NCBI GenBank assembly: GCA_020353055.1
Contig: CP070686.1
Coordinates: 1 to 48,087, forward strand
Origin: Caldifarciminota bacterium
GTDB taxonomy: Bacteria; Hydrothermota; Tepidihabitantia; SM23-42
DNA: 48,087 nucleotides
Reading direction: 5' to 3'
Positions 38,463 through 48,087 of this stretch are shown here, one piece after another. The translations under genes and the position numbers were made by a program. Positions within the stretch are counted from its first letter, which is position 1. Every line of letters starts with the position of its first letter. The notes beneath the pieces are model-generated. The model saw only the letters and a program-made list of their open reading frames with translations, ran no database searches and was not told where the DNA came from.

Positions 38463-38490
38463 TTGATTTTTAAATCACTACAGTTATAAT
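38463..38490 (+). promoter_or_regulatory. Promoter upstream of the 40-codon ORF and mazG-like gene
   Basis: TTGATT (38463-38468), a 16-base spacer and TATAAT (38485-38490), just after the terminator. With no other promoter seen before 39426, it may also drive cassette III. Confidence 0.75.
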
Positions 38491-38628: not shown

Positions 38629-38931
38629 GTGGATCTGAGCAAGTACCAAGAACTAATACGAACCCTGTACTTTGAGAAAGATTCGAGGCGAGGGCTTGAT
38701 AAGACTTTCAACTGGTTTGTCGAAGAAATCGGCGAATTTTCGAGAGCAATCCGCCAGAGAGATCGAAAAAAGATAGCGGAAGAATTCGCCGATTGCCTTG
38801 CCTGGCTTCTTTCCGTTGCTTCAATACTGGGAATCGATGCCGAAGACGCCATGACCAAATACAGAAACGGTTGTCCGAAATGTCACGCTACGCCGTGTGT
38901 CTGTGAAGAACACCGTAATCGTGATTCGTAG
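38629..38931 (+). CDS. MazG-like nucleotide pyrophosphohydrolase
   Basis: A 100-residue all-helical NTP pyrophosphatase domain: the EEIGEFSRAI (ExxE) and EEFADCLAWL (ExxD) metal-binding motifs are intact. The C-terminal CPKCHATPCVCEE is a four-Cys zinc-like tail seen in archaeal-type MazG-like proteins. It probably hydrolyses non-canonical NTPs. The start is GTG without a ribosome site; a TATCAT hexamer stands five bases before it but has no -35. The last codons and stop (RDS, TAG) lie within the left inverted repeat of the four-helix-bundle element, so the original C-terminus may have been changed. Confidence 0.8.
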   Translation: MDLSKYQELIRTLYFEKDSRRGLDKTFNWFVEEIGEFSRAIRQRDRKKIAEEFADCLAWLLSVASILGIDAEDAMTKYRNGCPKCHATPCVCEEHRNRDS

Positions 38932-38943
38932 TTCGTATTCGTA
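38914..38943 (+). repeat. Left inverted repeat of the four-helix-bundle element
   Basis: A 30-base sequence built from TTCGTA-like words. It matches the reverse complement of 39367-39396 at 25 of 30 positions by eye. It overlaps the 3' end of the MazG-like gene. Confidence 0.75.
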
Positions 38944-38973
38944 ACAAACATGATATATGACAACGGAGGATAT

Positions 38974-39357
38974 ATGAAAAGAACAAAAATAAGAAATGTG
39001 TGGGACATGGATGTCTTTAAGTTAGCACATGAACTCACTCTCAGAATCTACAAGGAAACTCGTGCCTTCCCGCGGTTTGAATTGTACTCGTTGGTTTCCC
39101 AAATGAGGAGAGCCGCAAGTTCCGTTCCAATGAATATTGCAGAAGACGCGGCACGAAATTCAAGGGGCGAACATAGAAGATTTACGTCGACGGCAAAAGG
39201 CTCAGTTGGTGCAATATCCTATCAGATCATCCTGAGCAGAGACCTCGGTTATATAAACATAGATGGTTCAGATGATTTAACAGAGGCATATGATCGAGTC
39301 GGCATGATGCTCAAGAGATTAGCCCGGAGTTTGGAGAAAAAGACATTAGTAGATTGA
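38974..39357 (+). CDS. Four-helix-bundle protein (23S rRNA intervening-sequence protein family)
   Basis: A 127-residue helical protein of the S23/IVP family: VWDMDVFKLAHELTLRIYKE, LYSLVSQMRRAASSVPMNIAE, then a Gly/Arg-containing turn and KGSVGAISYQIILSRDLGY. Such proteins are encoded inside intervening sequences of 23S rRNA genes and as free-standing multi-copy genes; their function is unclear. The start at 38974 is set by GGAGG four bases upstream. The gene is flanked by 30-base imperfect inverted repeats and sits between mazG and cassette III. Confidence 0.88.
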   Translation: MKRTKIRNVWDMDVFKLAHELTLRIYKETRAFPRFELYSLVSQMRRAASSVPMNIAEDAARNSRGEHRRFTSTAKGSVGAISYQIILSRDLGYINIDGSDDLTEAYDRVGMMLKRLARSLEKKTLVD

Positions 39358-39366
39358 AATCTTCAA

Positions 39367-39396
39367 GACGGATACGAAATACGATTCACGAATACG
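39367..39396 (-). repeat. Right inverted repeat of the four-helix-bundle element
   Basis: Reverse complement of the left repeat with five mismatches in 30 bases, starting 10 bases after the stop of the four-helix-bundle gene and 30 bases before the A3 start. The pair bounds a 483-base unit (38914-39396). Confidence 0.75.
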
Positions 39397-39425: not shown

Positions 39426-40511
39426 ATGATATTGATACTACTATGTGCGTTAGTGGGTTTGGCGCCTCCGACTGACGTCCGAGCGTATGATACACCAAGT
39501 GACGGTGGAGGTGAGGTAGTCGTCGAATGGCGGTTATCGACGGATGACGAGACGATCGACGGTTATGATATCTATCGCAGTGAAAACGGTGCGGATTTCG
39601 TAAAAGTCGGCTTCATTGGGAAAAACCGTTCATCCTACGGTGATCGGACAGAAGATGGCGTCACTTATCAGTACAAGGTTGCTGTTGTTTCGGATACCCT
39701 ACGGTCCTTTTCGCAACCGAGCGCCGAAGTCGCAAGCAGTGCATCCTGGATAAATGTTGCCAAACTGAATATTTATGTCGCGATGATCTTATTTGGCGGA
39801 CTGATCCTGTATTTCATCTATCACGCACGTAAAGGTAAAAAGTTGTTCATAAGAAAGATCGCCGGGTTGCAGGCAATCGATGACGCTGTTGGCCGCGCGA
39901 CCGAAATGGGCAAACCCATACTATACACGCTGGGGCTCGGATACATCGAGGATATCGCCACGATCGCAAGTCTCAATATCCTTGGAGAAGTCGCAAAGAA
40001 GACGGCACAATATGACACGAAATTGATCGTCCCTAACGCTGATCCTATCGTATACACAGTAGCACGTGAAATAGTCAAAGAATCTTATACAAAAGTAGGC
40101 AGACCAGATGCTTACGATCCTGACAGCGTCTTTTTTCTGGCACGCGAGCAGATGGCTTATGCTGCCGGTATCGATGGTATCATGACCCGGGAAAGACCCG
40201 CCACCAATTTTCTGGTCGGATATTTTGCCGCAGAGTCGCTGGTGCTTGCCGAAACTGGCGCGGCAACCGGAGCGATCCAGATCGCCGGAACCGATGCCCT
40301 GGCCCAGTTACCGTTCTTCGTGACGGCTTGCGATTATACCCTGATCGGCGAAGAATTATATGCTGCATCTGCCTATATTTCAAAACGACCATTGCTTCTT
40401 GGTGCCATAAAGGGCGAGGACTGGGCAAAGGTCATTATTGCGACGGCACTCATATTAGCATCAGTTATTGGTCTGTTATCTCGATTTCCAATACTCAATT
40501 TATTTCAATAG
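39426..40511 (+). CDS. Cassette protein A3: FN3 membrane protein (DUF6754-like)
   Basis: A 361-residue A protein. Signal peptide with APPTDVRAYD, FN3-like domain (PSDGGGEVVVEWRLSTDDET to about residue 100), TM helix (NIYVAMILFGGLILYFIYH), then the conserved domain. Compared with A1/A2 the Gly-rich turn reads TLGLGYIEDIATIASLN instead of PGLGDIDWTATIASMN, and the C-terminal linker is KGEDWAK instead of KAQDYGK, features shared with A4 and A5 (A5 has LVDYIATIASFN). An AAGGAGG site lies four bases before the ATG, unlike the leaderless A1/A2. B3 begins 10 bases downstream. Confidence 0.84.
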   Translation: MILILLCALVGLAPPTDVRAYDTPSDGGGEVVVEWRLSTDDETIDGYDIYRSENGADFVKVGFIGKNRSSYGDRTEDGVTYQYKVAVVSDTLRSFSQPSAEVASSASWINVAKLNIYVAMILFGGLILYFIYHARKGKKLFIRKIAGLQAIDDAVGRATEMGKPILYTLGLGYIEDIATIASLNILGEVAKKTAQYDTKLIVPNADPIVYTVAREIVKESYTKVGRPDAYDPDSVFFLAREQMAYAAGIDGIMTRERPATNFLVGYFAAESLVLAETGAATGAIQIAGTDALAQLPFFVTACDYTLIGEELYAASAYISKRPLLLGAIKGEDWAKVIIATALILASVIGLLSRFPILNLFQ

Positions 40512-40520
40512 GAGCCGAAC

Positions 40521-41180
40521 ATGAAAAAAACGATACCTTTAACCCTTATATTCATTGCCGGATTGCTCGGCGTGATCTCATTTGTCATTCCTCACCCTTC
40601 ATACCAGGTCTATGACGAATGGATACGCAACGATCTACTACGCGTGCTCTCCGCATTTGCGGTGGTGCTTGCACTAGGTAGTCTCCTCAGGGTGCACTTC
40701 GATAAAATCAGACGCAAGCGGAAGAACTGGCAATTTTCGTGGCTGCTCCTCGTCGCATTCGGTGCTTCGGCAATTATTGGACTATTCGGCGGCGTCGCCG
40801 CCGATGGCATTTTGCCGACCACGATCGGCTCGTTCCCATTCGATATCCAGACTTTGTACGAAAATATCGTGATACCCCTTGCCTCTTCCATGTTCGCACT
40901 CCTCGCTTTCTTCATGGCTTCGGCAGCATATCGGGCATTCAGGGTGCGCTCAATGGAAGCGACACTACTTCTGGGCGCGGCGTTCATCGTGATGATCGGG
41001 GTACTGCCGCTCGGGTACAGTATATCACAACACCTCCCCGGATTTGTCCAGTGGATACTGAACGTTCCTAATGTCGCGGGACAGCGAGGAATCGTGTTCG
41101 GCATCGCCCTTGGCGTGGTCGCAACATCCCTGAAGATTATCCTTGGTATTGAACGGGCATGGCTTGGAGGTGGCGAGTGA
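40521..41180 (+). CDS. Cassette protein B3: polytopic membrane protein
   Basis: A 219-residue paralogue of B2 with about six TM helices. It has an N-terminal Lys pair and the hydrophobic IPLTLIFIAGLLGVISFVIP, the cytosolic VHFDKIRRKRKNWQFSW loop, an extra 12-residue insertion between helices compared with B2, FFMASAAYRAFRVRSMEATLLL, the NVPNVAGQRGI turn and LKIILGIERAWLGG. It shares the 4-base GTGA overlap with C3. Ribosome site GGAG precedes the ATG. Confidence 0.83.
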   Translation: MKKTIPLTLIFIAGLLGVISFVIPHPSYQVYDEWIRNDLLRVLSAFAVVLALGSLLRVHFDKIRRKRKNWQFSWLLLVAFGASAIIGLFGGVAADGILPTTIGSFPFDIQTLYENIVIPLASSMFALLAFFMASAAYRAFRVRSMEATLLLGAAFIVMIGVLPLGYSISQHLPGFVQWILNVPNVAGQRGIVFGIALGVVATSLKIILGIERAWLGGGE

Positions 41181-42040
41181 AGCTATACGAAAGACTGATG
41201 ACAATTGACCGCAGAATCATCTACGGTATCCTGCTCGCCGTAGTCATGCTGCCCCTTATTTTCCCCTCCGTCGTAAAGGTCACACCGATGTCACCGGTTG
41301 AGAAGCTCTTCACGGCGGTGGACAATACAACAGACGACAAGGCGCTCATCCTCGACTGCAGCTACTCACCCCAGATAAAAGCAGAGGTCGAACCCATGGC
41401 CATTGCCGTGCTCAGGCACGCGTTCAAAACGAGAAAAAAGGTTCTCGTCTTGAGCCTGTATGTGGAGATGATCGGATTGGCAACGAGGGCAATAAATCAG
41501 GTGGTCGAAGAATTCAATGCAACCGCACAAACGTACGAGGATAGTATTATCTACGGGCGCGATTACGTTTTTCTCGGCTGGCAACCGCCACCGATCGTAC
41601 CGATGCTGGGTATGGGTGAAAGCATATCCAACATATATGTTGTTGACTACTACGGAAATGAAACCGATACCCTCCAGATGATGGAAAGAATCAGGAATTA
41701 TAATGATATAAGTATCCTCGTAGCACTGAGCGGGTCGCGCATCCCGATCTCTTGGGTTGCCTATGCACAGAACAGATACGGTCTTGCAGTCGGTGTTGGA
41801 TGTACGGCTGTTTCAGGAGCTGATTTCTATCCCTACTACCAGACGGGTCAATTCACGGGTCTCATGGTCGGCATGAAAGGAGCGGCAGAATACGAAGAAC
41901 TCGTTGAAGCAAACTACGCAGTAAAAGGAAGGCGTATCGCCAGCGAGGCAATGCTCTCTCTCACTTACGCACATCTTGCGATCATGCTCTTCATCGTCAT
42001 AGGAAACATTGGATTTTTTCTGCATAGGAGGAAAAAATGA
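41177..42040 (+). CDS. Cassette protein C3: membrane-anchored ectodomain protein
   Basis: A 287-residue paralogue of C2. N-terminal TM helix (IIYGILLAVVMLPLIF), ectodomain with CSYSPQIKAEVEPM, RHAFKTRKK, IYGRDYVFLGWQPPP, MLGMGESI, DYYGNETDTLQMM, YYQTGQFTGLMVGMKGAAEYE, and a C-terminal TM helix ending in HRRKK. The start is the GTG of a GTGA overlap with B3, with GGAGG upstream. The stop overlaps the D3 start (ATGA). Confidence 0.83.
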   Translation: MKLYERLMTIDRRIIYGILLAVVMLPLIFPSVVKVTPMSPVEKLFTAVDNTTDDKALILDCSYSPQIKAEVEPMAIAVLRHAFKTRKKVLVLSLYVEMIGLATRAINQVVEEFNATAQTYEDSIIYGRDYVFLGWQPPPIVPMLGMGESISNIYVVDYYGNETDTLQMMERIRNYNDISILVALSGSRIPISWVAYAQNRYGLAVGVGCTAVSGADFYPYYQTGQFTGLMVGMKGAAEYEELVEANYAVKGRRIASEAMLSLTYAHLAIMLFIVIGNIGFFLHRRKK

Positions 42041-42678
42041 ATATCTCAACTGACCCGTGGATCTGGATATCATCGATTTTGAGTTTGGCAATACTCTCTT
42101 TTCTCTACAGAGAAAATCCGTTCTTCCGAGCCGCAGAACACATTTTCTTGGGCGTCGCCAATGGTTACCTCGTCACCTTCTACTGGCACCGCATTCTAAT
42201 GCCAATCCTCTTTAGACCCCTATTCCAGCAAGGGGATCTACTGCTCATCATTCCATTTACTATCGGTATCCTCTACTTAACGCGGTTCATCCCGAGAATA
42301 TCGTGGCTTGTACGCATACCGATCGCCATTTACATGGGATACTGGACGGGCGTTCTGATACCGGCAACGATCCAGGCGCAAATCATCAAGCAGGTTCAGG
42401 GTACCGTACTGACATCCGCCAATTTTCAATCATGGAACGCAGGTGCATGGGGCATAGTGTGGTCGGTCATCGTATTCATAGGCGTACTATGCACTCTCTC
42501 CTATTTCTATTTCTCACGCGAACATAAGGGGGTAATCGGTGTTACCTCACGCGTGGGCATTGTTTTCGTCATGATTGGATTCGGTGCGGCGTTCGGCTAT
42601 ACCGTGATGGCACGTATCAGCCTTCTGATAGGCAAGCTGCAGTTCTTGCTGGGAGATTGGCTAGGGTTGATCAGATAG
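42037..42678 (+). CDS. Cassette protein D3: polytopic membrane protein
   Basis: A 213-residue paralogue of D2 with about six TM helices. The conserved DPWIWISSI start, FLYRENPFFRAAEHIFLGVANG, TRFIPRISWLVRIPIAIYMG, SREHKGVIG and FGYTVMARISLLIGKLQFLLG blocks are present. It is coupled to C3 by an ATGA overlap with GGAGG upstream, the tightest C-D junction of the three cassettes. Confidence 0.83.
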   Translation: MNISTDPWIWISSILSLAILSFLYRENPFFRAAEHIFLGVANGYLVTFYWHRILMPILFRPLFQQGDLLLIIPFTIGILYLTRFIPRISWLVRIPIAIYMGYWTGVLIPATIQAQIIKQVQGTVLTSANFQSWNAGAWGIVWSVIVFIGVLCTLSYFYFSREHKGVIGVTSRVGIVFVMIGFGAAFGYTVMARISLLIGKLQFLLGDWLGLIR

Positions 42679-42710
42679 GCGTAAGCCGGCGCTTGTCCCA
42701 TAAGGCATTC

Positions 42711-42746
42711 CGACGCACCGCCTAAATTGACACGGGCGGTGCGTCG
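42711..42746 (+). other. Hairpin between cassettes III and IV
   Basis: A 12-base perfect GC-rich stem (42711-42722 with 42735-42746) and a 12-base loop stand 32 bases after the D3 stop and 15 bases before the A4 promoter. No T-run follows, so it is either a non-canonical terminator or an RNA-stability element. A similar hairpin stands before A5. Confidence 0.75.
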
Positions 42747-42761
42747 CACCTCATAAATCTC

Positions 42762-42789
42762 TTTACTTATCATTTTTCTCAAATATAAT
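42762..42789 (+). promoter_or_regulatory. Promoter of cassette IV
   Basis: TTTACT (42762-42767), a 16-base spacer and TATAAT (42784-42789). The same sequence and spacing recur before A5. The start of transcription is expected near 42796, giving a leader of about 187 bases. Confidence 0.78.
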
Positions 42790-42795
42790 GTCGTT

Positions 42796-42982
42796 TCACC
42801 AACTTTTAATGAAGGATTCGATACAAGAATCTCTGAATTCTGGACAATGCGTTTTGCGTCTAAGTCAGATAGGCGCGCGTAACCGTTTTGTTACTTGCGC
42901 GTACCTGCGTTTCTATGGCAACAGGGAGCAATCTGGAGTGAATTCAAACATCCCCTTTTCCAGCAACAAGTAAGGAGGTCTA
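42796..42982 (+). other. Long 5' leader of cassette IV
   Basis: About 187 bases between the predicted transcription start and A4. It contains an imperfect hairpin around GCGCGTAAC and GTTACTTGCGC near 42875-42905 and an open frame from the ATG at 42809 to a TAA (42971-42973) that overlaps the A4 ribosome site. No known riboswitch is recognised. Confidence 0.45.
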
Positions 42983-44068
42983 ATGACTGGTATGTTACTG
43001 GCGGGCATCTTCGCGCTTGCGCCGCCGACCGCTGTTCATGCATACGATACGCCAGATGACGGCGGCGGGGCGGTAACGATAGAATGGCAACTATCGGCCG
43101 ATGATATGCACTTGCAGAAATACGAAGTATACCGCAGCGAAAACGGCGTTGATTTCGAAAAGGTTGGCCTCATAGGTCGGGGCCGTAACCAGATCGAAGA
43201 TGAAACCGAAGATGGTAAACAGTATACGTACAAGGTGGCGGCGGTTGCTGATACCGCAACGGTATTTTCCGAACCATCCTCAGTGGTAATAAGCACTGCG
43301 CAGTGGCTCAACCGTAAGAAGATCAACATAATCGTAGCAGTTGTCGTCCTCGGCGGTTTGATAATGTTCTTCATTCAGCATGCGCGCCGCGGTAGAGAAC
43401 TCTTTGTCAGAAAAATCGCCGGATTGCACGCGATCGATGATGCCGTGGGCAGGGCTACTGAAATGGGGAAGCCGATCCTTTACTGTCCGGGTATAGGATA
43501 TATTGAAGACATTGCCACGATCGCTTCTCTCAACATCCTTGGCGAGGTTGCAAAAAAATGTGGTCAATACGACACTAAGCTTATCAACCCTCATTTCGAT
43601 CCGATCGTCTACACAGTAGCAAGAGAAATCGTAAAAGAATCCTACACAAACGTTGGAAGGCCTGACGCATTCGACCCGGATAGTGTATACTATGTAACCG
43701 ATTCACAATTCGCATATGCGGCCGCCGTTGATGGGATCATGCTACGAGAATTGCCAGCAACGAACTTTTTGGTTGGTTGGTTTCGTGCGGAATCCCTTAT
43801 TCTCGCAGAAACCGGCGCATCAACCGGCGCAATTCAGATCGCCGGCACCGACCAGGTTTCGCAATTACCATTCTTTGTCACCGCCTGCGACTATACTCTG
43901 ATCGGCGAGGAACTCTATGCGGCTTCCGCTTATATCTCGCGCGAACCGTTGTTACTGGGTGCCATAAAAGGCGAAGACTGGGGCAAGGTGATAATCGGTG
44001 CCATCCTCATTGCCGGTTCAATCATCGGACTGCTTACTGTCTTTCCAATAATGAGTTTGTTTGACTAG
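42983..44068 (+). CDS. Cassette protein A4: FN3 membrane protein (DUF6754-like)
   Basis: A 361-residue A protein: signal peptide ending near APPTAVHAYD, FN3-like domain (PDDGGGAVTIEWQLSADD), TM helix (INIIVAVVVLGGLIMFFI) and RRGRELFVRK, then the conserved domain with GRATEMGKPILYCPGIGYI, AETGASTG, QIAGTDQ and the CDYTLIGEELYAASAY block, and a C-terminal TM helix. Closest to A3 by eye. The ribosome site AAGGAGG lies four bases before the ATG. B4 follows after nine bases. Confidence 0.84.
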   Translation: MTGMLLAGIFALAPPTAVHAYDTPDDGGGAVTIEWQLSADDMHLQKYEVYRSENGVDFEKVGLIGRGRNQIEDETEDGKQYTYKVAAVADTATVFSEPSSVVISTAQWLNRKKINIIVAVVVLGGLIMFFIQHARRGRELFVRKIAGLHAIDDAVGRATEMGKPILYCPGIGYIEDIATIASLNILGEVAKKCGQYDTKLINPHFDPIVYTVAREIVKESYTNVGRPDAFDPDSVYYVTDSQFAYAAAVDGIMLRELPATNFLVGWFRAESLILAETGASTGAIQIAGTDQVSQLPFFVTACDYTLIGEELYAASAYISREPLLLGAIKGEDWGKVIIGAILIAGSIIGLLTVFPIMSLFD

Positions 44069-44077
44069 GGGGCTCGA

Positions 44078-44740
44078 ATGAAAAGAAATTTTCCTTTATT
44101 GTTGGTTTTTGTTTTCGGAATACTCGGCATCATCCCATTTATCGTACCCCATCCCGCGGTTCAAAACACCGATGAATTCCTCCGCAACAACCTCCTGAAG
44201 ATACTTGCTGCTTTCGCTCTGATACTGGGATTGGGCAGCCTGTTGAGAGTACATTTCGACAAAATCCGGCGCAAGGGACAGAACTGGGAATACTCCTGGG
44301 TACTCATCGTCACTTTTGTCGTTACCTCGATCATCGGTCTATTCGGAGGCGTTTCCGGCACGGGCATACTGCCGACGAGAATCGGATCTTTTGCATTCGA
44401 CATCTGGACGATCTATTTCAATATCGAAGTACCACTGGGTGCTGCGATGTTTGCCTTGCTGTCGTTTTTCATGGCCTCGGCAGCCTACCGCGCATTCCGT
44501 GCTCGTTCCGCCGAGGCAACCCTGCTGCTTGCTTCGGCATTCATCGTCATGCTGGGCGTTCTTCCTCTCGGTAACGATATTTCTCCCCACCTCCCGTCTT
44601 TTGCACAATGGATCATGGACGTACCCAATGTTGCCGGGCAGCGCGGCATTCTTTTCGGCGTTGCGCTCGGCATGCTGGCAACCGCACTTAAGATCATACT
44701 CGGCATCGAACGCTCATGGCTTGGCGGAGGTGGCGAGTGA
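44078..44740 (+). CDS. Cassette protein B4: polytopic membrane protein
   Basis: A 220-residue B paralogue with about six TM helices. It shares with B3 the VHFDKIRRKGQNWEYSW loop, FMASAAYRAFRARSAEATLLL, MDVPNVAGQRGILFGVALG and the LKIILGIERSWLGGGG end, and the SGTGILPTRIGSFAFD insertion. GTGA overlap with C4. Confidence 0.83.
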   Translation: MKRNFPLLLVFVFGILGIIPFIVPHPAVQNTDEFLRNNLLKILAAFALILGLGSLLRVHFDKIRRKGQNWEYSWVLIVTFVVTSIIGLFGGVSGTGILPTRIGSFAFDIWTIYFNIEVPLGAAMFALLSFFMASAAYRAFRARSAEATLLLASAFIVMLGVLPLGNDISPHLPSFAQWIMDVPNVAGQRGILFGVALGMLATALKIILGIERSWLGGGGE

Positions 44741-45636
44741 AGATCATCGACCTTCTGACGAAGATTGACCGGCGCATCATCTACCTGATACTCTTTACGG
44801 TCGTGACCCTGCCGATCATCTTCCCATCCGCGAAATCCATACGGGTAATGCCGCCGGTCGAGAAGCTTTACGACGCCATAGACAACATCCCGGAAGATAA
44901 GGCATTGATCATCGATTTTGACTACGACCCGCAGACCTTACCGGAGATCGAACCGATGGCTTTTGCCATACTTCGACACGCATTCAGGAAACGCATAAAG
45001 GTGCTGGCATTGAGCCTGTATGTACAACCGCTTGGTCTTGCGCAGAATGCGCTCGTCAATGTGTCTGAAGAATTTAACAGCGTGGCAACGACGATTGCAG
45101 ATAGTATCATATACGGACGCGACTACGTATTCCTCGGATGGCAGCCGCCACCTCTCATTCCCATCCTCGGCATGGGCGAGAGCATTGTCAATGTCTACAG
45201 GACCGATTACTACGGTAACCAAACCGACACGTTGCCGCTCATGAAAGAAGTGAAGAACTACGCCGACGTCGGGTTACTCGTATCACTGAGCAGCGGCGAC
45301 CCTCCGAAGTGGTGGGTCGAATACGCACAAAACAGATTCGGTGTGAAAGTCGGCGCCGGGATAACTGCAGTTAGCGCCTCCGAATTCTACCCTTACTTGC
45401 AGACCGGTCAATTTTCCGGACTCATGGTCGGGATGAAGGGTGCTGCCGAATACGAAGAACAGATCGAAGCCGAACTCAACATCAAAGTGCGGCGTAAAGC
45501 GAGCGAGTCCATGTCTTCACTTACCTATGCCCATCTGGTCATAATCATCTTCATTCTTATCGGCAACACCGGCTACTTCATATCCCGCCGCAAGGCCAAG
45601 CCGTCACCGACCTCACCCACAGGGAGGACAAGATGA
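44737..45636 (+). CDS. Cassette protein C4: membrane-anchored ectodomain protein
   Basis: A 299-residue C paralogue. N-terminal TM helix (IIYLILFTVVTLPIIF), ectodomain with FDYDPQTLPEIEPM, RHAFRKRIK, IYGRDYVFLGWQPPP, ILGMGESIVNVY, DYYGNQTDTLPLM and YLQTGQFSGLMVGMKGAAEYE, then a C-terminal TM helix. Its tail (SRRKAKPSPTSPTGRTR) is longer than in C3. The start is GTG with GGAGG upstream. The stop overlaps a 54-codon ORF rather than D4 directly. Confidence 0.83.
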   Translation: MKIIDLLTKIDRRIIYLILFTVVTLPIIFPSAKSIRVMPPVEKLYDAIDNIPEDKALIIDFDYDPQTLPEIEPMAFAILRHAFRKRIKVLALSLYVQPLGLAQNALVNVSEEFNSVATTIADSIIYGRDYVFLGWQPPPLIPILGMGESIVNVYRTDYYGNQTDTLPLMKEVKNYADVGLLVSLSSGDPPKWWVEYAQNRFGVKVGAGITAVSASEFYPYLQTGQFSGLMVGMKGAAEYEEQIEAELNIKVRRKASESMSSLTYAHLVIIIFILIGNTGYFISRRKAKPSPTSPTGRTR

Positions 45637-45797
45637 CCGCTCGAACGAACCATCAGCTCATATATACGCAAAATATTGAACATCACTGTAGTCTGTTTTT
45701 CATCACCGTCCCGCTCCGCGGGATCCTCGACTTTCGTTATACGCATTCTTTCAAACGATGGAAAATCGGGATAATCAACGCGAGGAGGCTCCCATGA
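45633..45797 (+). CDS. 54-codon bridging ORF between C4 and D4
   Basis: The ATG at 45633 overlaps the C4 stop (ATGA) and has GGAGG five bases upstream. The frame runs 54 codons and its TGA overlaps the D4 ATG (ATGA), so it is stitched in at both ends. The product (begins MTARTNHQLIYTQN, ends INARRLP) is basic and not recognised. It could be a small subunit specific to this cassette, or an insertion of about 160 bases that kept translational coupling. By chance an open frame in the right phase would occur in about one case in forty (rough estimate). Confidence 0.4.
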   Translation: MTARTNHQLIYTQNIEHHCSLFFITVPLRGILDFRYTHSFKRWKIGIINARRLP

Positions 45798-46435
45798 ATA
45801 TTTCACTTGACCCCTGGGTTTGGATAAGCGCGCTTTGCACAATCGCCATTTTTTCATTTCTCTGGCGTGACAATCCATTCTATAAAGTTGCCGAACACGT
45901 TTTTGTTGGCGTTGCCAATGGCTGGGCTGTTACCTTCTACTGGCACAATGTACTCATGCCCACCCTGTTCGACCCGCTGTTCAGACAAGGCCAATTACTC
46001 TTCATCATTCCGTTCATTATTGGTATGCTATATCTGACGCGGTTTATACCGCGCGTGTCATGGCTCGTTCGTATTCCCATCGGTATATCAATGGGTTACT
46101 ATGTCGGAGCATCGATCCCCGCCGTAAGTCAGGCACTCATCATCAAGCAGATACAAGGAACCTTCCTGACGCCGCAGAATTTCCAGGCATGGCATGCCGG
46201 CAATATGGGTGTAGTGTGGTCGGTAATCTTGTTAGTCGGCGTACTGTGTACGCTGTCGTATTTCTACTTCTCCAAAGAACACAAAGGCGTTCTCGGCACG
46301 ACGTCACGTATCGGTATTATCTTTGTCATGATCGGTTTCGGCGCTGCATTTGGTTACACGGTCATGGCACGTATCAGCCTTCTTATCGGGCGAATCCAGT
46401 ACCTACTCGGTCCCTGGTTGGGCATCGTCGATTAA
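45794..46435 (+). CDS. Cassette protein D4: polytopic membrane protein
   Basis: A 213-residue D paralogue with about six TM helices: DPWVWISALCTIAIFSFLW, RDNPFYKVAEHVFVGVANGW, TRFIPRVSWLVRIPIGISMG, SKEHKGVLG, IIFVMIGFGAAFGYTVM and LLGPWLGIVD. The ATG at 45794 was chosen over one at 45758 because GGAGG lies five bases upstream and the protein then begins MNISLDPWVWI, as in D3. Confidence 0.83.
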   Translation: MNISLDPWVWISALCTIAIFSFLWRDNPFYKVAEHVFVGVANGWAVTFYWHNVLMPTLFDPLFRQGQLLFIIPFIIGMLYLTRFIPRVSWLVRIPIGISMGYYVGASIPAVSQALIIKQIQGTFLTPQNFQAWHAGNMGVVWSVILLVGVLCTLSYFYFSKEHKGVLGTTSRIGIIFVMIGFGAAFGYTVMARISLLIGRIQYLLGPWLGIVD

Positions 46436-46469
46436 GTAGCACAAAACCAGTTCTGAAAAAAACGCCATA

Positions 46470-46500
46470 GCGGCGTACGGCAAATCACGCCGTGCGCCGC
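46470..46500 (+). other. Hairpin between cassettes IV and V
   Basis: A 12-base stem with one G-T pair (46470-46481 with 46489-46500) and a seven-base loop. It lies 34 bases after the D4 stop and 19 bases before the A5 promoter, as in the preceding junction. No T-run follows. Confidence 0.75.
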
Positions 46501-46519
46501 GCTTCTTCAATCAAGAGTC

Positions 46520-46547
46520 TTTACTTATTACCCTCTTCTAATATAAT
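46520..46547 (+). promoter_or_regulatory. Promoter of cassette V
   Basis: TTTACT (46520-46525), a 16-base spacer and TATAAT (46542-46547): same hexamers and spacing as cassette IV. The predicted leader is about 300 bases. Confidence 0.78.
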
Positions 46548-46566
46548 ATAACACATTGCAGGATTA

Positions 46567-46857
46567 ATGGACAATCACTATCCATTGAGTTACAAGACTA
46601 CACACGGATCATCGGAAACGATGGTCAATAATGAACTCATAGTATATAGCACGTTGGTTGTCATCCCGACTTCAGATACCGTCAGTCGGTTAATGGCCTC
46701 GAAAAGCGAATCACACTACGATTACGATGTCTGTTTTGTACAACCGGACGCCCCACCATACGGACTCGAAACCGCATTCCGACCGACGTATTGCATTTCC
46801 AAACCGTACAACCTCAACCTGATGTCATTTGTTTACCTATCCAAGGAGGTTCAATGA
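46567..46857 (+). CDS. Possible 96-residue leader ORF of cassette V
   Basis: This ORF opens 13 bases after the predicted transcription start and ends in an ATGA overlap with A5. A weak GGA precedes the ATG at three bases. The product shows no signal peptide, domain or similarity to the shorter leader ORF of cassette IV. It may be a regulatory leader, a fast-evolving small protein or chance; otherwise the 418 bases between D4 and A5 hold only the hairpin and promoter. Confidence 0.3.
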   Translation: MDNHYPLSYKTTHGSSETMVNNELIVYSTLVVIPTSDTVSRLMASKSESHYDYDVCFVQPDAPPYGLETAFRPTYCISKPYNLNLMSFVYLSKEVQ

Positions 46858-47939
46858 TTTATGTTCTATTAGCCGGTGTCTTTGCCCTCGCTCCACCGAC
46901 CGGCGTGAATGCCTATGACACACCGAACGACCGTGGTGACGCGATCACGGTTGAATGGCAGCTTTCATCTGATGATGCGCAGCTCGAGGGATATGAGATA
47001 TACCGAAGCGAACAAGGTAAAGAATATGAACTCGTTGGTTTTATCGGTTCCGGCCGGACCCGTTATGAAGATCGAGTCGAAGAAGATAAGGAATACGAGT
47101 ACAAAGTCGCCGCCCTGTATGATTCAGAACGGGCGTATTCAGAACCCTCCCCAACGGCACGCAGCAAACCTCAGTGGTTCGACGCAGAATCGATCAATTT
47201 ACTCATCGGTGTCATCATCTTCTGTACGATAATCCTCTATTTTATCAATCAAGCAAGAAGAGGCAAGAAACTCTTCATCCGTAAAATCAGCGGCCTCGAT
47301 GCCGTAGACGAAGCAGTCGGCCGGGCAACGGAAATGGGAAGACCAATTCTGTATTGCATGGGCATCGGTCTCGTTGATTATATCGCCACCATTGCGTCAT
47401 TCAATATCCTTGGTGAAATTGCGAAAAAAACCGGTCAATATGAGACACCGTTAATAGTACCGACTTCCAACCCGGTCGTTTACACCGTGGCGCGCGAAAT
47501 AGTCAAAGAATCATACACCACGATCGGCAGACCCGATCTCTTTGATTCAGATCAGGTGTATTTCGTGACCGACTCACAGTTCGCTTTTGCCGCGGCAGTG
47601 GACGGCGTCATGCTAAGAGAAAAACCGGCTGCGAATTTTTTCATTGGATATTTCAAAGCCGAATCCTTGATCATGGCCGAGACCGGTGCCTCGACCGGTG
47701 CGATCCAGATCGCCGGAACCGACCAGATAACCCAACTACCTTTCTTTGTGACTGCCTGTGACTTCACGCTGATCGGCGAGGAATTATATGCCGCATCCGC
47801 TTACTTATCTAAAGAACCACTGCTACTTGGAGCGATCAAAGGCGAGGATTTGGGTAAGGTGGTGATCCTAAGCGTTCTCGCCGTCGCTTCGCTCATCGGA
47901 CTCCTGACAAAATTCCCTGTACTCAATGTGTTTCGATAG
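46854..47939 (+). CDS. Cassette protein A5: FN3 membrane protein (DUF6754-like)
   Basis: A 361-residue A protein: signal peptide (MIYVLLAGVFALAPPTGVNAYD), FN3-like domain (PNDRGDAITVEWQLSSDD), TM helix (LLIGVIIFCTIILYFI), RRGKKLFIRK, conserved domain (GRATEMGRPILYCMGIGLV, FDSDQVYFVTDSQFAFAAAV, AETGASTG, QIAGTDQ, CDFTLIGEELYAASAY) and a C-terminal TM helix. CDF replaces the CDY of all other copies. The start at 46854 is set by AAGGAGG four bases upstream. B5 starts nine bases after the stop. Confidence 0.84.
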   Translation: MIYVLLAGVFALAPPTGVNAYDTPNDRGDAITVEWQLSSDDAQLEGYEIYRSEQGKEYELVGFIGSGRTRYEDRVEEDKEYEYKVAALYDSERAYSEPSPTARSKPQWFDAESINLLIGVIIFCTIILYFINQARRGKKLFIRKISGLDAVDEAVGRATEMGRPILYCMGIGLVDYIATIASFNILGEIAKKTGQYETPLIVPTSNPVVYTVAREIVKESYTTIGRPDLFDSDQVYFVTDSQFAFAAAVDGVMLREKPAANFFIGYFKAESLIMAETGASTGAIQIAGTDQITQLPFFVTACDFTLIGEELYAASAYLSKEPLLLGAIKGEDLGKVVILSVLAVASLIGLLTKFPVLNVFR

Positions 47940-47948
47940 GAGCATGTT

Positions 47949-48087
47949 ATGAAAAGAAGATTTCCATTAATGTTGGTTCTCATATTCGGAATCCTGGGCA
48001 TAATACCGTACTTCGTGCCGCATGGAGGATACCAGGATTTCGACAATGCTTTGCGGAACGATTTCATTAGAATACTTTCCGCATTCG
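47949..48087 (+). CDS. Cassette protein B5 (3' partial)
   Basis: The first 46 codons of a B paralogue cut by the window end. MKRRFPLMLVLIFGILGII, YFVPH and LRNDFIRILSAF match the N-termini of B3 and B4 (IPFIVPHP and LRNNLLKILAAF in B4). This shows that the cassette V gene order continues beyond the window. Confidence 0.8.
   Translation, partial: MKRRFPLMLVLIFGILGIIPYFVPHGGYQDFDNALRNDFIRILSAF

Follow-up and report, generated by a model that had tools for sequence, protein, structure and literature searches.

What is a four-helix-bundle gene of the S23/IVP family, a family encoded in intervening sequences (IVSs) of 23S rRNA, doing between two inverted repeats at the junction of a mazG-like gene and a DUF6754 gene? 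The arrangement is found in a 48,087-nucleotide stretch of DNA, hereafter the window, from a Caldifarciminota bacterium (CP070686.1), whose genome is a single 2.69 Mb contig, 96.9% complete. We know of no function for S23/IVP genes since their first description; to our knowledge the spread of rRNA IVSs has so far been guessed at, and the heptameric repeats of bacteria have no known source. The explanation which we favour, and consider probable, is a mobile element of approximately 420–480 bp, consisting of one IVP/S23 gene between inverted arms of 7- or 8-nt words, which inserts mostly at the stop codons of upstream genes and whose IVP protein would bind its own words. It draws on the anatomy of the unit, exact empty sites, arm words kept within protein lineages, dispersed words, purifying selection and one copy with a similar arm in 23S rRNA, all of which were observed.

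The unit at the mazG/DUF6754 junction

The features of the region are listed in Table 1. An earlier note on this DNA had described 30-base inverted repeats enclosing only an S23/IVP gene, and this description holds: the left arm (CGTAATCGTGATTCGTAGTTCGTATTCGTA) and the reverse complement of the right arm (CGTATTCGTGAATCGTATTTCGTATCCGTC) are identical at 25 of 30 positions, and the 483-base unit encloses a single ORF, assigned to PF05635/TIGR02436, with no HUH/Y1 transposase gene between the arms. A gapped comparison of 6,784 positions across the window, at similar spacing, ranked the arm pair first (46, against 34 for the best elsewhere); under the scoring of the flank survey described below it reached 38, a value that the best of 1,179 swapped flank pairs equalled and none exceeded. 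The final codons of the mazG-like gene and its stop are left-arm sequence, in agreement with the claim that the unit altered the end of this gene. The long stem suggested for the flanks was also recovered, the arms pairing as a long imperfect stem in the predicted minimum-energy and centroid RNA folds. The promoter placed at 38463 fared less well; a promoter-like match is present, but such matches are no more frequent than expected by chance (3 vs 2.2).

Table 1. Features of the mazG–IVP–DUF6754 region of CP070686.1
Feature	Position	Strand	Remarks
mazG-like pyrophosphohydrolase gene	38629..38931	+	PF03819, E 1.1e-11; TAG stop at 38929-38931, inside left arm
Left (5') arm	38914..38943	+	CGT spacing 6-7-7-6; word ~ATTCGTG
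S23/IVP four-helix-bundle gene	38974..39357	+	127 aa; ATG behind Shine-Dalgarno-like GGAGG; 38950..39357 from first ATG (alternative start)
Right (3') arm	39367..39396	-	inverted copy of left arm word; CGT spacing also 6-7-7-6
DUF6754 gene	39426..40511	+	PF20539, E 1.4e-113; with mazG marks insertion site in relatives

Three DUF6754 paralogues are located within 39426–48087 (at 39426, at 42983 and near 46854), the first two each being followed by three smaller membrane-protein-like ORFs; relative genomes contain up to eight.

Both sequence and fold place the product of the enclosed gene in the S23/IVP family. It scores 101.6 bits against PF05635 (cut-off 33.8; E 3.4e-29) and 93.8 bits against TIGR02436, "four helix bundle protein" (cut-off 24; E 7e-27). 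The AlphaFold model has four helices (pLDDT 91.8), and its best fold match is XCC0516 (2GSC; Z 20.0, rmsd 1.2 over 115 residues), a homopentamer (PMC4990558). Further matches are 2RLD (Z 17.3) and Avd in an RNA–protein complex (Z ~15). The protein is under purifying selection, with dN/dS or pN/pS values of about 0.1–0.3 against relatives; dN/dS was 0.07–0.2 in most pairs, the maximum being 0.47 in a truncated Xanthomonas case.

DUF6754 was found in 41 of the 41 relatives searched, which allowed the junction to be followed among them. An empty site between mazG and DUF6754, proposed in the earlier note as something to look for in relatives, was read at L041, L047, L053 and L062–L065, where mazG lies directly 5' of DUF6754 and ends shortly past its CPKC..CxCxE motif. 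The window type of IVP gene, with TTCGT arms, occupies the junction in the window and at L037, L038, L045 and L055, while a second IVP type with other arms is present at L049, L054 and L058, plus L046 and L051. L040 (G005) is a hybrid in which a TTCGT left arm is joined to the end of the second IVP type and the right flank of that type, and at L048 an arm remnant stands next to a solitary palindrome. At L042, L043 and L052 a DUF559-like nuclease gene, identified by eye, lies between CTCCTCACCCTAACCC / CTCCTCACCCTAACCCTCTCC repeats, which shows that the site is also used by other single-gene units bounded by repeats. With such varied occupancy the junction is a place of turnover; the unit is thus not common to all relatives, whereas it was its presence at this site in every one of them that the earlier note had held would speak against mobility. 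The arm makes both the end of mazG and its stop in the window and at L040, L045 and L055 (e.g. R-I-R-D-S-stop, encoded by CGTATTCGTGATTCGTAA). Since the window-type protein is still 68–75% identical across three genera, the unit is probably old at its own site, and its presence is hence not evidence for a recent jump there.

A search for further copies in the same genome, also suggested earlier, gave four IVP genes in all and one more copy of the window arm, a solitary one without an IVP gene at 719670–719697. The flanks of L004 carry a CGTTA-type word (TAACGATAATAACG) and those of L006 a TTTAGTA-like word (TTTAGTATTTAG); no arm word was seen in the inspected flanks of L005. Runs of N mask parts of the flanks or IVP genes at L004, L006 and L058, where the arms are only partly readable. 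None of the genome's three other IVP genes therefore has the window word, an absence which the earlier note had named as a finding against its proposal. The absence is real and harmless: each IVP lineage has its own word, and for this reason it strengthens the case.

Arms, words and insertion sites of IVP loci

The flanks of 186 IVP loci were surveyed, 99 of them from relatives and 87 from a broad set covering many phyla and plasmids, and strong inverted flanks were defined as a best inverted match between the 200-bp flanks scoring at least 30. Such flanks were present in 29% of the relatives' loci (0.7% with swapped flanks, 1.5% for other ORFs) and in 54% of the broad set (0.85% and 3.6%, respectively). 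At this threshold some 46–70% of IVP genes are without a strong inverted arm, for which decay, other arm types or domestication of the gene may be the reasons.

Self-repeat periodicity of the flanks peaked at 7, 8, 14 and 16 nt, with none at lags 5, 6, 10 and 12; at lag 7, 61% of the flanks in the broad set exceeded the threshold, against 6% inside the gene. The arms are imperfect tandem-like words of 7 or 8 nt. These vary by lineage, examples being AGCTNAC, ATAGTCGG, GATTGGAA, CGTTANNN, AGTCAGR, GTGAATC and GGGAATC, and the 5' arm is purine-rich on the gene strand (G 0.34, C 0.11), which is mirrored in the 3' arm. Among IVP pairs at different sites, i.e. without a homologous neighbouring ORF, the word was shared by 32% of those with 60–70% protein identity, by 56% at 70–80% and by four out of four above 80%; almost no pair below 50% shared one. 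Where a word was shared, its orientation with respect to the gene was always the same (opposite, 0%). Arm words therefore stay with the protein lineage across sites, and units move whole. This cohesion is no proof of recognition, being also expected from plain copying of the whole unit.

Exact empty sites were observed on cyanobacterial plasmids. Plasmid C of Trichormus variabilis ATCC 29413 (L162) and plasmid2 of Nostoc linckia NIES-25 (L249) differ by a single 428-bp insertion, the flanks being identical at 547/553 and 513/520 positions (99%). The insert contains an IVP gene with AGTCAGR arms, lies at a stop codon, and has GTAAT on either side, a sequence of which the empty site has a single copy. 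Nostoc C052 (L163, a 417-bp unit) and Nostoc ATCC 53789 (L258) provide mutual empty sites, the latter having, at the gene junction that follows, a second IVP unit of ~506 bp bounded by GGGGAAAA arms. The direct repeats next to the inserts are short; of the three clean cases one is clear (GTAAT/GTAAT), and TAATG/TTATG and TTCT(A)/TTCT are imperfect. The same plasmid family includes gene-less units of inverted AGTCAGG words (L257, L261; absent from L163 and L258), and in pC052_E of Nostoc C052 (L251) a decayed unit, consisting of one arm and a gene fragment, occupies the site at which L162 has an intact unit. The element is thus mobile in evolution, and the proposal that genes of this family act as small mobile units beyond rRNA as well is supported by the empty and filled sites, by arm words kept at different sites and by the variable occupancy of the mazG/DUF6754 junction.

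Insertions were found at many unrelated sites without homology to the element. A 5' arm was clear in 102 elements; in 62 of these, an ORF of 80 aa or more on the same strand ends no more than 20 nt from the start of the arm, so the usual target is the stop codon of the upstream gene. The arm shortens the upstream gene or takes the place of its stop at L157 and L160. Because an arm can supply a new stop on insertion, operons and even rRNA tolerate the element. At L156 the unit lies between nrdB and nrdA on the strand opposite to both. Three cyanobacterial plasmids have an IVP gene among cas genes (L159, L164, L165), its neighbours being either cas6 and cas4 or cmr2 and cmr3; these look like insertions and not like CRISPR components. 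The proposed element would explain IVP genes at such places, and in other operons, as insertions rather than partners.

Dispersed words and known repeat systems

The arms also occur without the gene, as inverted pairs resembling MITEs or as solitary arrays. Genome-wide maps of the words were based on pattern searches. The TTCGT arm consensus CGTATTCGTGATTCGTNNNTCGTATTCGT (up to 3 mismatches) gave some 70 matches, spread over 14 of 41 genomes, and its reversed-pattern control gave none. Solitary copies were present in every one of the six genomes that have a cognate IVP gene and in 8 of the 35 others (Fisher p 6.7e-4, indicative only since the genomes are related). The CGTTA word CGTTANNNT was found 105 times in the genome of the window, 247 in G003, 64 in G007, 26 in G025 and 24 in G009, and at most five times in each of the other 36, the reversed control never exceeding one per genome; an IVP gene with CGTTA arms is present in three of these five rich genomes, G007 and G025 being the exceptions (Mann-Whitney p 4.7e-4, indicative for the same reason). 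Many words without a cognate IVP gene thus occur in G007 and G025 (CGTTA) and in G013 (TTCGT). Among the CGTTA arrays inspected in the genome of the window, 18 of 25 were outside ORFs, and some were gene-less inverted pairs which start 7 nt past a stop codon (L294, 737–842 and 2168–2272). A search with the ATAGTC word was no clean test, as its reversed control is nearly the word itself and some matches are the elements' own arms. Two genomes have a solitary TTCGT arm, in frame, close to the beginning of an apparent prepilin gene (L083, L093).

In Xanthomonas and Luteimonas the orthologues of XCC0516 are flanked by GGGAATC words and apparently sit between accB and accC. The arm word of XCC0516 is the published Xanthomonas heptamer GGGAATC. 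Arrays of this heptamer number 186 and 183 in two Xanthomonas genomes, 70 and 75 of them in convergent pairs, lie at a mean distance of 28 nt from the upstream ORF and often have about four units, their source being unexplained (PMC4692102). There, the G-rich heptamers of Xanthomonas and Nostoc (GGGAATC, GGGGA[T/C]T) were presented as G-quadruplex repeats, generally unassociated with mobile elements, and the text mentions neither XCC0516 nor S23. No published link between S23/IVP genes and heptamer repeats was found in the literature covered, which leaves out preprints and most subscription journals.

The IVSs in 23S rRNA of Coxiella and Leptospira have in common with the window unit an ORF of the S23p/IVP family, a similar size and inverted ends. 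They differ in lying within an rRNA gene, the window unit being placed between mazG and DUF6754. The Coxiella IVS has 428 nt and heptameric GACAGAT repeats beside its ORF, and is excised by RNase III (PMC4990558). An IVP copy of Azospirillum lipoferum (L166) likewise lies inside 23S rRNA (Rfam RF02541) and has a heptad 3' arm (CCGTCCTCTGTCTTCTGTCATCCGTCTTCTG). Most simply, the IVSs of rRNA can be viewed as copies of this one element. In the literature examined, no description of IVSs was found to mention heptad words particular to a lineage, arms dispersed elsewhere or insertion at stop codons.

Inverted ends and exact empty sites are features which IVP elements share with classical insertion sequences and MITEs. 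The REPtrons (RAYT/TnpA-REP, PMC8266576) resemble them in having one gene between inverted repeats, gene-less repeats dispersed elsewhere, and cohesion of protein and repeat; dispersal of the cognate repeat is weak for the window word (one solitary copy) and strong for the CGTTA word (105 places). A REPtron, however, has a HUH/Y1 transposase and palindromic REP hairpins, whereas the arms of the window element are arrays of 7/8-nt words and a transposase is absent, for which reason it is not a REPtron despite the like architecture. Avd of the diversity-generating retroelements (4DWL, 8UB7), an oligomeric ribonucleoprotein partner, has the same fold as the window protein, but is only ~8% identical to it, and the reverse transcriptase is absent from the genome of the window.

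Possible mechanism and alternative explanations

Arms whose step is constant but whose word is free to vary suggest that they are read by something with evolving specificity, and the IVP protein is the candidate since it is the only conserved product of the unit. As a homologue of the pentameric XCC0516 and of the Avd ring proteins, it would bind, on single-stranded DNA or RNA, the word array of its own lineage, with perhaps one protomer to each word. It might then draw the two ends together, and host or other enzymes would do the cutting and copying. In transcripts RNase III may cut the paired arms, by analogy with the rRNA IVSs.

The IVP gene might instead be a passenger with some other function, its arms being mobilised in trans by another enzyme, either a reverse transcriptase or a REP transposase of the Y1/HUH type. 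No catalytic signature is seen in the gene, three Y1_Tnp genes are present in the genome of the window, and the IVP protein is related to Avd, the partner of a DGR reverse transcriptase. Both candidate enzymes were considered and rejected: the genome, a nearly complete single contig, has no RVT_1 reverse transcriptase, and no TTCGT arm lies within 1.5 kb of any of the three Y1 genes, one of which has different repeats of its own. Moreover, each IVP lineage has wholly different words, yet all keep the 7/8-nt step and the inverted layout, so that a single shared enzyme could hardly read them, and we regard this explanation as unlikely. Somewhat less likely still is an RNA element similar to the rRNA IVSs, whose arms would serve only as an RNase III stem and which, lacking its own transposition mechanism, would spread through homologous recombination or gene conversion. 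It would accord with the predicted pairing of the arms, with RNase III excision in Coxiella and with the IVP copy inside 23S rRNA, but what is conserved is the word repeats and not the stem. Mismatches in the arms are not systematically G-U compatible (42/177 vs 29.5 expected, not significant), unusual stability was not found for the fold of the whole-element RNA (z -1.2), and the many unrelated insertion sites share no homology with the element.

The period itself could have been selected because a stop-bearing word repeated every 7 or 8 nt closes all three frames at the insertion site. Periods of 7 and 8, not 6 or 9, do dominate, and the arms do supply upstream stops; three-frame stops, however, show only a modest excess (47% vs 37% after word permutation), and we hold this explanation to be about as improbable as the RNA element. 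An ordinary, vertically inherited operon gene, flanked by unrelated simple-sequence expansions, would account for the position of the window type upstream of DUF6754 in several genera, at the protein identity given above, and for purifying selection. It is very improbable given that other relatives have this junction either empty or occupied by a different unit (another IVP type or a DUF559 gene), that inverted flanks are far above the swapped-flank and other-ORF controls, and that exact empty and filled sites elsewhere contradict it.

The mobile element with its own reading protein may extend to a wider class, for which the balance is even: in such a class a non-catalytic, ring-forming four-helix-bundle protein would read lineage-particular 7/8-nt words, the dispersed heptamers of Xanthomonas, cyanobacteria and others would stem from it, and rRNA IVSs would be copies that landed in rRNA. 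There is a fair chance that the whole class may merit its own name. It would join the function of IVP proteins, the spread of IVSs and the origin of the heptamers in one object with testable parts, namely a solved protein (2GSC), a GGGAATC array beside its gene, and exact empty sites on sequenced plasmids.

The Y1 transposase gene with its own repeats mentioned above (L263, 2554599–2554934 in the genome of the window) is flanked by AAAAATGTTAAAAATGTTATGCCTGTCCCCG and is apparently REPtron-like.
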